Assembly (NCBI RefSeq): GCF_000184705.1 | Contig: NC_014831.1 | Location: 248,001-312,000, forward strand | Reading direction: 5' to 3' | Length of the DNA: 64,000 bases | Origin: Thermaerobacter marianensis DSM 12885 | Lineage (GTDB): Bacteria; Bacillota; Sulfobacillia; Thermaerobacterales; Thermaerobacteraceae | Shown: piece by piece, positions 31,750-49,726 of the stretch | How the letters are laid out: every line of letters begins with the position of its first letter | Position numbering within the stretch: the stretch's first letter is position 1 | Made by a program: the position numbers and the translations under genes | The notes under the pieces: generated by a model | The model's database searches: none | Told to the model about the DNA's origin: nothing | The model's input: only the letters and a program-made list of their open reading frames with translations

Positions 31750-32040
31750 GGGGTGCCTGTGGCCGGGAGAGCGCCTGCGGTCCGGGCCGCTCCGGTCCGG
31801 ACCGCAGGGTGCCGCCGCGCTTCGGGATGCGGCCCGGGTGACCGGGGAACCGGGCGCGGCGTCGGGCCCGGGCGCCAGCGCCCGGCCGCCCAATCCGGGG
31901 GCGGCCCAGGGAGCGGGAGGCGCTGAGGGAAGGCGCCGGGGAGGTGGTACCGGAGGGCACGGTGATGGCGCGGCGATGGAGCCGGATCGGGGTGCGGTCG
32001 GGGTTCACCAGCACGACGGAAAGCAGCCGGAAGGCTTGCT

Positions 32041-32180
32041 AGCGCCAGGACTCGCCGGCAGGGCGCCGGCGAGTTGACGAGGACCGGGCGTATCGAACCT
32101 TCGGCGGATCGCCCGGCGGTCGGCCACGACCGAGAGCGGCCCGGCAAATCCCGGGAGCGATCCCGGGGACAATACGGGCC
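32041..32180 (+). ncRNA. glmS glucosamine-6-phosphate-activated ribozyme (riboswitch)
   Basis: The sequence fits the glmS ribozyme in order and spacing. AGCGCC sits at the cleavage site, predicted between A32041 and G32042. A perfect 10-bp P1 pairs 32050-32059 with 32065-32074. GTTGACGAGG follows, then P2 (CCGGGCG 32084-32090 with CGCCCGG 32110-32116) enclosing TATCGA and TCGGCGGAT. P3 is GGTCG/CGACC at 32118-32131. The P4-region hairpin CCCGGGA/TCCCGGG spans 32150-32167, with a closing GGCCCG/CGGGCC helix ending at 32180. In known cases GlcN6P binding triggers self-cleavage and RNase J decay of glmS mRNA. Here it lies 491 bases upstream of glmS, an unusually long distance. Confidence 0.93.
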
Positions 32181-32593
32181 AGGTGGCGTGAACCCTCCTC
32201 GCACCGGAACCTTCCCGTCCGGTGTGCCCTCACCCGTTCATCCAGCCGGCATCTCACTGCACGGACGAGCGAGCCCGTTGCGGCGCCGTGACGCCCGGGC
32301 GGCGGTGACGTCTTGGCCTGGGCTGGGCTCCGGGACCGCGTTGGGCCCGTGTTGTGCTCGGCGGACATCATGGCCCGTGGCCCGTGCGACGCTGCGGGAG
32401 CCGGAGTGCGCGGGCCTGCCGCCGGCGGCCCCCTTGCCGGCGTCGGCGGCAGGCCCCGGGGCCGGTTCGTCCTGCGGATCGCGGCGGGATCGGGCCGGAG
32501 CCTGCCCGGCACCACCGGGGGGACCGGACGCGGCCCTGGGCGGCCTCTTCGCGGGTTCTTCGGGGGGCCTTTGTGGGCCCTTCGCAGGCCGTG

Positions 32594-44123: not shown

Positions 44124-44155
44124 CCCGCCGGCTCCCCCGTAGGGGAGCCGGCGGG
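44124..44155. terminator. Perfect 14-bp GC hairpin between convergent genes
   Basis: CCCGCCGGCTCCCC (44124-44137), loop CGTA, then the exact complement (44142-44155). There is no U-tract. It lies about 60 bases past the stop of each flanking convergent gene. Confidence 0.6.
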
Positions 44156-44216: not shown

Positions 44217-44867
44217 TCAGTCGAGGGCCCTCTGAATCACCGCCAGCAGGTGCGGTTCCGGCACCGCGCCCTCCACGGCCGCCGAACCGTTGACCACGGT
44301 CTTCGGAACACCGAAGACCGCAAAGCGGTTGGCCAGTTCGGGGAACTCCATGGCCTCGATGGCATCGGCGCGCACCCGATCGCTGGCGAGCGCCATTTTG
44401 TGAGCCAGGCGGACCGCCCGGGGACAGTACGGTCACGTCGGCGTCACGAAGACCTGCAGGTGCACGTCGGTGTCCAGTGACTTCAGGTAGGCTTCCGTCT
44501 CCGGCGACAGTTCCCCGGTTCCGCGGGATACGTCCACGATGTCGTCGATCAGCGTGCCGAACTCGTAACCCGCCGGGATGCCGTAGAACCGCACGCCCGT
44601 GTCGCTGCCGTCGGCCCGCGCGAACACGATGGCGGGAGCCATGTCGACACCGTACCGATCGGCCACCTCCGGCTCGAGATCGAGGTCGTGGACCTCGACC
44701 GTTACGCGGTCGTCCAGCTCCGCCACCGCCTCCAGCAGCTGGCGGGTGTCCTCGCAGTACGGGCATTCGTCCTTGTCCCCACGGACGAATAGCTTCAGTA
44801 CCACGGGGGATTCCAACGCCTCAAACCGCCGGCGGATCTCCCGCCGGTCCTGTTCGGAAAGCTGCAC
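44217..44867 (-). CDS. Protein disulfide oxidoreductase (two-thioredoxin-domain PDO), predicted selenoprotein with in-frame UGA (Sec145)
   Basis: The frame from GTG 44867 (AGGAGGGAACCGAG upstream) encodes thioredoxin domain 1 with an intact CPYC (GDKDECPYCEDTRQLLEAV, about residue 47). It then continues through VHLQVFVTPT to a TGA at 44435-44433. Read as one residue X, the frame goes on XPYCPRAVRLAHKMALAS, EAMEFPELANRFAVFGVPKT, VVNGSAAVEGAVPEPHLLAV to TGA 44219-44217. That is domain 2 of a PDO, with its cis-Pro loop (GVPKT), and X falls exactly on the first Cys of the expected CPYC. Total 216 residues matches PDO length (about 220-230). A bacterial SECIS-like hairpin follows the UGA, so selenocysteine is the best reading; a Cys-to-stop mutation or sequencing error is the alternative. 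It is the last gene of the arsR-DUF302-PDO group, 31 bases after DUF302. Confidence 0.8.
44405..44435 (-). promoter_or_regulatory. Putative bacterial SECIS element downstream of the in-frame UGA
   Basis: Counting the U of UGA as 1, bases 15-31 fold as CCGGGCG-GUC-CGCCUGG, seven pairs with one G-U. The apical G22-U23 is within one base of G23-U24 in the E. coli fdhF SECIS, where the loop GGUCU is bound by SelB. The surrounding sequence GCGGUCCGC also resembles the fdhF apex GCAGGUCUGC. The fold is seen in sequence; SelB binding is inference. Confidence 0.65.
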
Positions 44868-44898: not shown

Positions 44899-45300
44899 TC
44901 AGCGGGCCGCTGCATCCACCACCGCGCGCAGCTCCTGTTCCACCTCGTTCGCCAGGTCACGAAACCGCTCGTCGTCCAGCAGGCCGATCAACGTCTGCGG
45001 GCGCAGCAGGCCGATCTTCGTGCGGTTGCCGTCGTTGCGGTCGGAGTACACCACGATCTTGCAAGGCAGTAGGTAACCGACCTTCTGATCGGTCTCCAGG
45101 GCCTGTTTGGCCTTGGCAGGGTTGCAGACCTCGAAGATGTGGAAGTCGGGTTCGAGGTGGAAGCCCTTCTCCCGCAGCTTCTCGTTGACGTGCAGGTGCC
45201 AGAGGGCGCTGAACTTGCGCTCAGCCAGCGCGGATTGCAGCGCTTGGATAGCCTCGTCCACCGGCTTGTCCGTGGCCACCGTGTAATCCAGTTCGGCCAT
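44899..45300 (-). CDS. DUF302-family protein
   Basis: The 133-residue protein matches DUF302: MAELDYTVATDKPVDEAIQA, LQSALAERKFSALWHLHVNE, EVCNPAKAKQALETDQKVGY, LLPCKIVVYSDRNDGNRTKI and a C-terminal helical segment. The family (fold related to heme/small-ligand binding proteins) is common near sulfur and redox genes, and its biochemical role is unsettled. Two Cys (ICEVCNP-like FEVCNP and LLPC) are typical. ATG 45300 follows GGAGGGATGGACGG. The stop is 31 bases before the selenoprotein start; the 147-bp gap to arsR holds nothing recognised. Confidence 0.85.
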   Translation of the reverse strand: MAELDYTVATDKPVDEAIQALQSALAERKFSALWHLHVNEKLREKGFHLEPDFHIFEVCNPAKAKQALETDQKVGYLLPCKIVVYSDRNDGNRTKIGLLRPQTLIGLLDDERFRDLANEVEQELRAVVDAAAR

Positions 45301-45447
45301 CCGTCCATCCCTCCACCGTGTTGCTGCCTGAGCTGGATCCCAACCCGTCCGGCTGTGCAAGCCTGGAGGTCCGGGACCCCGTCCAGGTGCGTGGCGTTCA
45401 CGCCGTCGTTGGCCCCCACCCGGACCGGCGCGGGGCGAATCGCCTTG

Positions 45448-45813
45448 TCACTCCTGACCGGATGGCGGCTCCGCGCCGCCCTCCGCGGCCAACCTCGCAT
45501 TGCGCCGCAAGTGCTCGAGGAGCACCTGGCGCACGGCCTGGCACGCTTCCAGGATCTCCCGCGAGGCGAGCCGGTAATACACGTTGAGCCCTTCCTTGCG
45601 CGACTCCACCAAGCCGTACTGGCGCATGAGGGCCAGGTGCTGGGAGAGGTTGGCGGTGGTGGTGTCGACGACACGTGCCAGTTCACCGGCCGTCATCTCA
45701 CCACCGGCCAGGGTGTACAGAATCTCCAAGCGCTTGGGGCTCGCCAGCACATGACAGAGTCGCGCCTGCAGCTCCAGCAACTGCTTTTCCGTGTCCGTCC
45801 GCTCCGCAGTCAT
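45448..45813 (-). CDS. ArsR/SmtB-family transcriptional repressor
   Basis: The 121-residue winged-helix protein has LLELQARLCHVLASPKRLEI, GEMTAGELARVVDTTTANLS and QHLALMRQYGLVESRKEGLN, followed by VYYRLASREILEACQAVRQV. It has only two cysteines, C20 near the N-terminal helix and C91 in the C-terminal helix. It lacks the metal-binding CxC motif of ArsR proper. A two-Cys layout recalls persulfide/redox sensors such as SqrR and BigR, although the first Cys is not at the same alignment position. Located divergently from the sulfur operon and next to palindromic A+T-rich sites, it is the likely regulator of both sides. Confidence 0.85.
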   Translation of the reverse strand: MTAERTDTEKQLLELQARLCHVLASPKRLEILYTLAGGEMTAGELARVVDTTTANLSQHLALMRQYGLVESRKEGLNVYYRLASREILEACQAVRQVLLEHLRRNARLAAEGGAEPPSGQE

Positions 45814-46171: not shown

Positions 46172-46513
46172 ATGGCGATGCGCGCTTCGTTGCCGGACAC
46201 CGTCACCCCCGAGGAGCTGCGCCGGCGACTCGAGGCCGGTAACGCCCCGCTGATCATCGATGTCCGCGAGCCCGACGAGTACGCCGGTGGGCACATCCCG
46301 GGCGCGCGGTTGCTCCCGCTGGGCCAGGTACCCATGCGGTACCGGGAGTTGCCGGCGGATCAGGAGATCGTCCTGGTCTGTCGCAGCGGGAACCGCTCCG
46401 GCCTGGCCCAGGAATGGCTGCAAGCAATGGGTTTCCGCAATGTCCGCAACCTGGTAGGCGGCATGCGGCGGTGGAACGGCCCGGTGGAATATGGGGCCGG
46501 GCAGAGACGCTGA
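46172..46513 (+). CDS. Single-domain rhodanese-like sulfurtransferase
   Basis: The 113 residues form one rhodanese domain: TPEELRRRLEAGNAPLIIDV, REPDEYAGGHIPGARLLPLG, active-site loop VLVCRSGNRSGLAQEWLQ with the persulfide Cys, and VGGMRRWNGPVE. It moves sulfane sulfur between thiols in the cytosol. It is the first gene of the rightward sulfur operon, 91 bases after an operator-like palindrome. A G-run precedes ATG 46172; ATG 46178 is equally possible. Confidence 0.92.
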   Translation: MAMRASLPDTVTPEELRRRLEAGNAPLIIDVREPDEYAGGHIPGARLLPLGQVPMRYRELPADQEIVLVCRSGNRSGLAQEWLQAMGFRNVRNLVGGMRRWNGPVEYGAGQRR

Positions 46514-46527
46514 GGGGAGGGACAGAG

Positions 46528-47739
46528 GTGGACGCAAGGACGCGGACTCCCTGGGAAATCGATGCCGGTGAGCTCAAGCGGATGCTGGACCGGGGTGAAA
46601 CTCCGTTCCTGATCGATGTCCGCAATGACGAGGAGTTTCGCCGCTGGCGGATCGAAGGCCGCCAGCCCCTACCGGTGATCCACGTGCCGTACTACGAGAT
46701 CCTGGCCGAGGCGGAGGAAGACGATGTCACCGCATCGGCCAAGGCCTACGCGCGCCGGTACTGGGTGGACCACCTGCCCCGGGAAGGGCGGATCGTGGTC
46801 GTGTGTGCCCACGGCGGCACCTCCCGGTATGTGGCCCAGGGGCTGCGCGAGCTGGGGTATGACGCCTTCAGCTTGCGCGGCGGCATGATCGCCTGGGGCG
46901 ACCATTACGAGTTTGTCCCCGTGGTGGAAGAGGAGGGCCTTGCCGTTTATCAGATCAACCGCCCGGCCCGCGGCTGCCTGAGCTATCTGGTGGCCTCGGA
47001 GGGGGAGGCGGTGATCATCGACCCGCTGCGCCACGCCGAGCGCTACCTGGAGTTCTCGCGCCGGCACGGCCTGGCCATCACCCGGGTCCTGGACACCCAC
47101 GCCCACGCCGACCACATCAGCAGCGGCACCGAGCTGGCAGAAAAATTGGGCGTGCCGTACCACCTGCACCCCTACGACGCCATTCATCCCATGGACGTGT
47201 TGCCCGCCACCTTCCGCTACCAGCCGGTGTACGACGGGCAGGAGGTCCGCGTGGGCCGCGCCACCTTGCGGGCGATCCATGTGCCCGGCCACACCCTGGG
47301 CCAGGTGGTCTACCTGCTGGACGACCGCTACCTGTTCAGCGGCGACACCATCTTCGTCGAGTCCATCGCCCGCCCGGACCTGGGTGGCCGGGCCGAGACC
47401 TGGACGCCCCTGTATTACCGGTCCCTTCTGCGGCTGATGGAGCTGCCCGACTCCACGCTGGTTCTTCCCGGGCACTTCAGCCGGCCGCAGGAGGCCGACG
47501 CCCGCGGCCTCGTCGCCGGCACGCTGGGCGACCTCAAACAGTCCAACGAGGGGTTGCAGGCCCTGGCAGCGGGCGAGCGAGCCTTCGTCGACTTCATCAT
47601 GGCCCGCCTGCCGGAGTTCCCCCAGCACTACGTGGACATCAAGCGGGTGAACACCGGTTTGCTACGGCCGAGCGAGGAGCAGGCGTCCGAGCTCGAGCTG
47701 GGGCGTAATGTCTGCGCGCTGGCGGAAGAAGCGGCCTGA
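46528..47739 (+). CDS. Rhodanese / MBL-fold fusion, persulfide dioxygenase-like
   Basis: Residues 1-125 are a rhodanese domain (GETPFLIDVRNDEEFRRWRI, active loop VVVCAHGGTSRYVAQGLREL). Residues 140-400 are an ETHE1/glyoxalase II-type MBL domain with ITRVLDTHAHADHISSGTEL, IHVPGHTLGQVVYLLDDRYL, FSGDTIFVESIARPDLGG and LVLPGHFS. ETHE1-type enzymes oxidise glutathione or other low-molecular-weight persulfides to sulfite with Fe and O2. The fused rhodanese would pass sulfane sulfur to or from that site. Start GTG 46528 follows GGGGAGGGACAGAG, 14 bases past the first rhodanese gene. Sulfite formed here could be exported by the TauE protein encoded downstream. Confidence 0.9.
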   Translation: MDARTRTPWEIDAGELKRMLDRGETPFLIDVRNDEEFRRWRIEGRQPLPVIHVPYYEILAEAEEDDVTASAKAYARRYWVDHLPREGRIVVVCAHGGTSRYVAQGLRELGYDAFSLRGGMIAWGDHYEFVPVVEEEGLAVYQINRPARGCLSYLVASEGEAVIIDPLRHAERYLEFSRRHGLAITRVLDTHAHADHISSGTELAEKLGVPYHLHPYDAIHPMDVLPATFRYQPVYDGQEVRVGRATLRAIHVPGHTLGQVVYLLDDRYLFSGDTIFVESIARPDLGGRAETWTPLYYRSLLRLMELPDSTLVLPGHFSRPQEADARGLVAGTLGDLKQSNEGLQALAAGERAFVDFIMARLPEFPQHYVDIKRVNTGLLRPSEEQASELELGRNVCALAEEAA

Positions 47740-47754
47740 GGGAGGGAATCGTCC

Positions 47755-48363
47755 GTGAACGCGACGTTCAAGCCGAGCGCCACCGTGGATGCCCGCGGCC
47801 TTTCCTGCCCGCTGCCGATCGTGCGGACACGCAAGGCGATCGATGCCCTGCAGGTCGGGGAGATCCTCGAGGTGCTGGCGACCGACAGGGGCGCACCCGC
47901 CGATTTCCGGGGCTGGTGTGAGCAGACGGAGCACAAGTTCCTGGGCGTGGTGGAGGACGACGGTTTCCTCCGGCTGTATGTCAAGAAGCTGGTCCCCGAA
48001 ACCAGGGAGAAGGGACAACTCTTCGATCGTGAGATGAGCAATGAGGAACTGGCCCGGCGCCTCGAAGCCGGCGATCCGCTGGTCGTGCTGGACGTGCGGG
48101 AACCCGAGGAATACGAGGCCGGCCATATCCCCGGTGCCGTCTCCGTGCCGATCGAGTCAGTGTCCGAGTTCGCCGCGCAGCTTGAACGGTCGGCGGAGAT
48201 CGCCGTGGTCTGCCGCAGCGGCCGCCGCAGCGCCTACGCCTGCCGCATCCTGGAACAGGCCGGCTTCGAGAAGGTGGTCAACGTGGTGCCGGGCATGTCC
48301 GCCTGGTCCGGCCCGGTCGAGCGCGGCGGTGCCGGGGATGCCCCGGCACCGGCATCCCGCTGA
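47755..48363 (+). CDS. TusA-rhodanese fusion sulfur carrier
   Basis: Residues 1-75 are a TusA/SirA domain with the CPxP motif (VDARGLSCPLPIVRTRKAID) and the usual EVLATDRGAPADFRGWCEQT strand-helix. Residues 95-195 are a rhodanese domain (DPLVVLDVREPEEYEAGHIP, loop AVVCRSGRRSAYACRILEQ). It probably accepts sulfane sulfur on one Cys and relays it to the other. It starts at GTG 47755, 15 bases after the persulfide dioxygenase gene, and is followed by dsrE. Such fusions occur in sulfur-oxidising and sulfur-detoxifying clusters. Confidence 0.92.
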   Translation: MNATFKPSATVDARGLSCPLPIVRTRKAIDALQVGEILEVLATDRGAPADFRGWCEQTEHKFLGVVEDDGFLRLYVKKLVPETREKGQLFDREMSNEELARRLEAGDPLVVLDVREPEEYEAGHIPGAVSVPIESVSEFAAQLERSAEIAVVCRSGRRSAYACRILEQAGFEKVVNVVPGMSAWSGPVERGGAGDAPAPASR

Positions 48364-48438
48364 CGTCACGCCGGCATTCGGGTGCCACGGGTCCAATCCG
48401 GCTCCCGGCACGGCGAAATCAGGAGGGAGGGGTACGCG

Positions 48439-48837
48439 GTGTCCGTCCGTCGCGTCGCCATCATCGCCAGCCACGGCAACATCGACGATGCTTACAAGGT
48501 GCTGAACATCGCCACGGCGGCCGCCGCCATGGGGGCGGAGGTCCAGGTCTTCTTCACCTTCGATGGCCTGAAGATCATCCACAAGGAAGCGAACCGGCAA
48601 TTGCCGGTGCCGGAGCACCTGCAGCCGGCGCTGGAAGGCTTCAAGAAGAACAACGTGCCTTCGGTGCCCGAGCTGCTGGAGATCGCCAGGGAGTCGGGCG
48701 TCAAGCTGATCGGCTGCCAGATGACCATGGACGTCATGGGCATCGGCCTCGACGAGCTGGTGGACGGGGTCGAGCCCGGCGGTGCGGCCGCCTTCCTGGC
48801 CTTCGCGGCCGAGGCCGACGTCAACGTCACGTTTTGA
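48439..48837 (+). CDS. DsrE/DsrF-like (DsrE2-type) sulfur-relay protein
   Basis: The 132-residue protein has VAIIASHGNIDDAYKVLNIA, TAAAAMGAEVQVFFTFDGLK, and VPSVPELLEIARESGVKLIG followed by CQMTMDVMGI, where the Cys (near residue 95) is the conserved sulfur-carrying residue of the DsrE2 group. Membrane-type DsrE2 proteins have two helices; this one has only moderately hydrophobic stretches and is probably cytosolic. GTG 48439 has AGGAGGGAGGGG upstream. Partner of the TusA-rhodanese protein in sulfur transfer, by context. Confidence 0.87.
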   Translation: MSVRRVAIIASHGNIDDAYKVLNIATAAAAMGAEVQVFFTFDGLKIIHKEANRQLPVPEHLQPALEGFKKNNVPSVPELLEIARESGVKLIGCQMTMDVMGIGLDELVDGVEPGGAAAFLAFAAEADVNVTF

Positions 48838-48952
48838 ACGGTGGGAGCGGGCGCCCGGGCCCGGTCCCGGGCGCCCGGTGCACCCCGCGGCCACGTGCGG
48901 TAACGGGCGCTTCAGGAATCCGAGGACATGAGACAAGGGGAGGAAGGTCCGG

Positions 48953-49726
48953 ATGAGCGCCCTCCTTTTCCTGATCGGCCTGGCCGGCGGGTTCTTCTCG
49001 GGATTGCTGGGACTCGGCGGTGCGATCCTCATGGTTCCGCTGTTGTTGTTCGTCCCGCCGCTGTTCGGCTTCCCGGCCCTGGACATGAAGCAGGTGGCCG
49101 CCATCACCATCGTGCAGGTGTTCTTCGCGGCGCTGTCCGGGATGCTGGTCCACTGGCGGAACCGGTTCGTCCACAAGGATCTGGTCCTGACCATGGGAGG
49201 AGCCAGCGCCCTCGCCGCCCTGGCGGGCGGCCTGCTGTCCGATCTCGTGAACGCGCGCGCGTTACTCCTTCTCTTCGCCAGCATTGCCACGGTGGCGGGC
49301 GTGCTGATGTTCCTGCCCCGGCGGGAAGACGATCCGGATGCGACGGCGGACAGCGTCCGTTTCAACAGGCCGCTGGCCGTGGCCATCGCCCTGGCGGTGG
49401 GGTTGGTGGGCGGGCTCGTCGGGGCGCCGGGCGCCTTCATCTACGTGCCCCTCATGATGTACGTGCTCAAGATCCCGACGCGGGTCACTCTGGGCTCGAC
49501 CCTGGCCATCGTCCTCTTCACCGCCACCTTCGGCATGGTGGGCAAGGTGGCGACGGGGCAGGTCGACTGGCCGCTGGCGCTGGCCCTGGTGCTGGGTTCG
49601 GTACCCGGGGCCCAGGCGGGTGGGTATCTGTCGAAGCGGGTCCGCGCCGGCGCGCTGCGCTGGATGGTGGCGGCGGTGGTCTGGGCGTCCGTCCTCCAGA
49701 TGTGGCGCCATGCCCTTTCCGGCTGA
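48953..49726 (+). CDS. TauE/SafE-family sulfite/anion exporter
   Basis: The 257-residue protein has seven to eight hydrophobic segments and the two internal TauE repeats, each opening with a Gly-rich helix (FLIGLAGGFFSGLLGLGGAI and ALAVGLVGGLVGAPGAFIYV). LDMKQVAAITIVQVFFAAL and PTRVTLGSTLAIVLFTATFG are the matching second helices. The family exports sulfite, sulfoacetate and related anions. As last gene of the operon it would remove sulfite formed by the persulfide dioxygenase-like enzyme. A terminator follows at 49859. Confidence 0.9.
   Translation: MSALLFLIGLAGGFFSGLLGLGGAILMVPLLLFVPPLFGFPALDMKQVAAITIVQVFFAALSGMLVHWRNRFVHKDLVLTMGGASALAALAGGLLSDLVNARALLLLFASIATVAGVLMFLPRREDDPDATADSVRFNRPLAVAIALAVGLVGGLVGAPGAFIYVPLMMYVLKIPTRVTLGSTLAIVLFTATFGMVGKVATGQVDWPLALALVLGSVPGAQAGGYLSKRVRAGALRWMVAAVVWASVLQMWRHALSG

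Follow-up and report, generated by a model that had tools for sequence, protein, structure and literature searches.

A predicted selenocysteine-containing protein disulfide oxidoreductase encoded near sulfane-sulfur genes in Thermaerobacter marianensis

The locus and its reading frame

The genome of T. marianensis DSM 12885 is a single contig of 2,844,696 bases, and the window analyzed here is the stretch of 64,000 nucleotides at positions 248001-312000. Its minus strand carries a gene for a protein disulfide oxidoreductase (PDO) with an in-frame TGA, together with genes for a DUF302 protein and an ArsR-family regulator, and a divergent set of sulfane-sulfur genes lies beyond them. The features are, in window coordinates:

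44217..44867, minus strand: predicted selenoprotein PDO gene, 216 residues with selenocysteine (Sec) at 145; match to TIGR02187 (PDO_seleno_TRX)
44881-44875, minus strand: AGGAGGG ribosome-binding site of the PDO gene
44867, minus strand: GTG start of the PDO gene
44754..44765, minus strand: domain-1 CPYC, residues 35-38; the CxxC is kept in most homologues, not all
44433..44435, minus strand: UGA, predicted to be read as Sec145, which opens the domain-2 UPYC motif; of 61 homologues, 35 have TGA at this codon and 26 have TGC/TGT
44424..44426, minus strand: Cys148, predicted resolving Cys of the UPYC motif; invariant
44405..44421, minus strand: candidate apical hairpin of a bacterial SECIS, with a 7-bp stem and a GUC loop that lies 18 nt beyond the UGA
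44304..44306, minus strand: Pro188, invariant, occupying the cis-Pro position of the thioredoxin fold in domain 2
44219-44217, minus strand: second TGA, the stop of the PDO gene
44899..45360, minus strand: DUF302 protein (Pfam PF03625), directly upstream of the PDO gene; upstream in 3/3 sister genomes
45448..45813, minus strand: ArsR-family regulator (PF01022, NF033788), genus-conserved
46172..49726, plus strand: divergent sulfane-sulfur set of rhodanese, rhodanese-MBL, TusA-rhodanese, DsrE2 and TauE

The frame and coordinates, the in-frame TGA, the 216 codons to the second TGA and the CPYC, UPYC and GVPK motifs described in the earlier note were all reproduced. Read through, the full frame matches NCBIfam TIGR02187.2 ("protein disulfide oxidoreductase") with 275.1 bits over model positions 2-208 of 209, the curated cut-off being 185 bits. 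This match and the column at codon 145, which holds TGA or a Cys codon throughout the 61 homologues, argue that the UGA-containing frame is not a product of chance. The PDO gene makes a solid example of a recoded stop codon, one at which ordinary gene calling would end the product after 144 residues.

A tandem thioredoxin-fold PDO architecture is confidently predicted by AlphaFold2 from the family alignment (mean pLDDT 95.9, pTM 0.92), and the model superposes on the solved PDOs 1a8l and 1j08 with a Z of 34.1 and an rmsd of 1.1 Å over 213 residues; the sequence matches the same two structures with an E of about 1e-51. The archaeal and Aquifex PDOs (1a8l, 1j08, 2ayt, 2hls) likewise consist of two thioredoxin-fold domains and match over the full length in both sequence and fold. 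The P. furiosus enzyme has a Cys as domain-2 nucleophile (VFVTPTCPYCP) where the T. marianensis gene reads VFVTPT-U-PYCP. The N-terminal domain of AhpF (1zyn, 5h29, 6il7) has the same tandem fold with a weaker match (Z 27-30), but in AhpF it belongs to a flavoprotein, whereas the Sec-PDO is a stand-alone protein.

A long GC-rich hairpin, GCCGGCTCCCC-TAC-GGGGGAGCCGGC, occupies window positions 44124-44153, where the PDO and methyltransferase genes converge; it has no T run and is possibly a two-way terminator.

Selenocysteine machinery, Sec/Cys exchange and the downstream hairpin

The genome search that the earlier note had proposed as a check found selA, selB, selD and tRNA-Sec. The tRNA-Sec lies at genome positions 395728-395820 (82.8 bits), and ARAGORN likewise identifies a tRNA-SeC there, its anticodon being TCA. 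selA scores 571.8 bits, and selB is a 673-codon open frame whose summed matches reach 352 bits, above the cut-off. selD scores 400.5 bits (L027, G000:C1:961929-962864) and contains one in-frame TGA, so SelD itself is probably a selenoprotein, as is common for this protein.

A protein search of 61 genomes gave a match in 33, and loci were fetched from 30 of them, one per genome. Of these 30 class-level loci, 21 have TGA as the catalytic codon and 9 have TGC or TGT, always in the same TPT-[U/C]-P-x-C-P column. selA is present in 21/21 UGA genomes, and the 3/30 genomes that lack it all have the Cys form (Fisher one-sided p of about 0.02, calculated from the 30-genome counts). The wider set of 61 rows, which combines the class-level loci with phylum-level hits, Chloroflexota contigs and paralogues, shows the Cys/Sec exchange that an alignment around the UGA had been expected to reveal. 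The tree of these rows contains 11 Sec/Cys state changes, at least 3 of them forced by well-supported branches; this is below every one of 500 label shuffles (mean 20), yet it still amounts to 11 changes, and the Sec/Cys label therefore tracks ancestry but switches repeatedly. One switch separates two species of a single genus, where a UPYC form (L035) and a CPYC form (L036) have nearly identical flanking and downstream DNA. Since Cys and Sec have exchanged repeatedly, even at this short range, matched Sec and Cys enzymes allow the benefit of selenium to be tested.

Within the genus, the UGA is kept in 4/4 members, T. marianensis and three sister species. After the UGA, T. marianensis and the sister G002 differ at codon positions 1/2/3 by 4/3/18 substitutions; within the genus this region is under purifying selection, like the region before the UGA. 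Thus selB and a tRNA-Sec exist, the close relatives have TGA and not TGC, and conservation in sister species continues past the UGA, the points on which the earlier note had staked its prediction.

Position 145 is always C or U, Cys148 and Pro188 are invariant, and Sec in domain 1 occurs in 0/61 rows. The domain-1 CxxC is missing from nine Sec forms and five Cys forms (L102 and L104 being truncated rows), and in the nine Sec forms (L045, L047, L051, L054, L057, L058, L059, L106 and L107) the Sec site is the sole CxxC-type motif left. Taken together, the domain-2 invariants, the lack of domain-1 Sec and the losses of the domain-1 CxxC identify domain 2 as the conserved catalytic half. A second Sec-PDO paralogue with a TPT-U-PHCP motif is encoded in the same genome (L102, G000:C1:2641112-2641906), its two domains joined by a long Ala/Pro/Glu-rich linker, and one sister genome has two paralogues of this type (L103 and L104).

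The 7-bp hairpin reported downstream of the UGA, CCGGGCG-GUC-CGCCUGG, was located at 44421-44405; it starts 11 nt after the UGA and has a G within the first two loop bases. Taken alone, the hairpin of the PDO gene is no better than synonymous-codon chance (p of about 0.12). With one sequence per genus, pairing in the UGA forms reaches 5.5 of the 7 pairs, where 4.19 (sd 0.29) would be expected, whereas the Cys forms have 3.56 against 3.82. RNAalifold over all UGA forms found no consensus structure, because the loop moves by one base and the stems vary among clades, and a position-flexible hairpin score was therefore adopted and compared with synonymous shuffles in a wider set from which the window sequence was left out. 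On this score, 25 UGA forms reach 17.2 against 12.9 (sd 0.8) when shuffled, with 0/400 shuffles as high, whereas 22 Cys forms reach 12.2 against 11.3 (sd 0.9; p 0.14). The stem variants differ by clade (CCGGGCG/CGCCTGG, CCAGGCG/CGCCTGG, CCGGCCGC/GCGGCTGG, CAGGGC/GCCCTG and CGCAAGC/GCTTGCG) with pairing preserved, as predicted for a maintained hairpin. It is weak or shifted in the UGA forms L035, L055, L078 and L102, and the whole-region folding energy of the UGA forms showed no excess. We regard the hairpin as a candidate SECIS, with a constraint that is specific to UGA forms and a signal that resides in the set rather than in the single gene; the sequences in these sets are phylogenetically non-independent, though near copies had been taken out.

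Reading of the UGA and proposed mechanism

The TGA is one base apart from TGC, and a sequencing or assembly error might have produced it; but TGA recurs in the three sister species and in another 31 rows of homologues, which, in addition to the Sec machinery of the genome, makes such an error vanishingly improbable. In the standard code UGA means stop, and the PDO gene itself terminates with one, so the in-frame UGA might be a true stop; translation would then yield a truncated one-domain protein, and the remainder would be a pseudogene in decay or a second polypeptide with its own start. We consider this very improbable given the purifying selection on domain 2, the retention of its active site where relatives have lost the domain-1 CxxC, and the fact that in distant lineages the UGA swaps for exactly the catalytic Cys codon and tracks the presence of selA. 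Bacteria are known to read through UGA by near-cognate decoding, and suppression might insert Cys or Trp instead of Sec; the complete Sec pathway, the exchange of position 145 with Cys and the hairpin constraint specific to UGA forms all speak for Sec, and we hold suppression to be extremely improbable.

The gene thus almost certainly encodes a PDO of the TIGR02187 family with Sec as the domain-2 nucleophile (UPYC), the UGA being decoded by the Sec machinery under the direction of the hairpin. The machinery, the Sec/Cys exchange, the hairpin constraint and the fold model all support the UPYC selenoprotein proposed in the earlier note. For Sec insertion, catalysis and substrate, we infer the following scheme. 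SelA, SelD, tRNA-Sec and SelB would bring Sec to the UGA, where the hairpin about 11 nt downstream would direct its insertion. The Sec145 selenolate would then act as the nucleophile on a disulfide or persulfide, the intermediate would be resolved by Cys148 as a selenenylsulfide, and electrons would be passed by domain 1 (CPYC) or by a flavin reductase.

The Sec-PDO belongs to a family already listed as Sec-containing in reviews, the 2026 review citing Kryukov and Gladyshev 2004 and classing the family as "predicted with high confidence", outside the experimentally validated group (PMC9312934, PMC13188914). A 2006 survey recorded members in Symbiobacterium thermophilum and Carboxydothermus hydrogenoformans (PMC1794560), and family selenoproteins are also reported from Asgard archaea (PMC11227280). 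A literature search under the PDO name with selenoprotein or selenocysteine returned nothing relevant, because papers use the AhpF N-terminal-domain name. The listed Sec-PDO/AhpF-N-type selenoproteins share the family model, the single-Sec UxxC and the presence of Cys homologues among relatives; compared by description, they show no difference in kind from the T. marianensis gene. The literature has listed the family as selenium-containing since 2004; the T. marianensis gene adds one more member to a predicted selenoprotein family that was already known, and the suggestion that a two-domain Sec-PDO would be a noteworthy variant overstated its novelty. What is less familiar is that Sec and Cys exchange so widely, that Sec is confined to domain 2, that one genome encodes two Sec-PDOs and that the neighbourhood of persulfide genes is conserved in the genus.

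The persulfide gene neighbourhood

In the sister genomes too, the rhodanese and rhodanese-MBL genes adjoin the ArsR gene, and the gene order is common to the three sister genomes within the stretches read there. The three sister species carry an extra flavoprotein gene between the DUF302 and PDO genes (L108:2897-4276 in G002); this protein scores 452 bits against a CoA-disulfide reductase model, under the cut-off of 579. No such gene lies between window positions 44867 and 44899, and elsewhere in the T. marianensis genome there are only distant homologues, the best with 32% identity. An apparent non-conservation of the DUF302 and ArsR genes in 1.5-kb flanks was rejected, the sister genomes having the 1.4-kb flavoprotein gene in between.

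Beyond the genus, DsrE2, TusA-rhodanese and ArsR genes are found near the PDO gene in two genomes of family f28, and rhodanese or MBL-rhodanese and DUF302 genes in two of family f8. Most other Sec-PDO lineages examined have none of these genes nearby, and the genes immediately beside the PDO gene vary (rubrerythrin, OsmC, CoA-binding protein, peptidases). The persulfide link is thus genuine within the genus but scattered outside it, so the association with persulfide genes that had been put forward holds for the genus and a few other families and fails in most Sec-PDO lineages. Our tentative and rather doubtful proposal is that the Sec-PDO might be the catalytic partner in an ArsR-controlled sulfane-sulfur operon, reducing persulfides or polysulfides with the CoA-disulfide-reductase-like flavoprotein, and hence a selenium-dependent persulfide reductase and not a general protein disulfide enzyme. 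If the persulfide link is true, a selenoprotein family that the reviews cited above list only as predicted would acquire a function.

Elsewhere in the window, a glmS ribozyme lies at 32030-32191 on the plus strand (90.3 bits).
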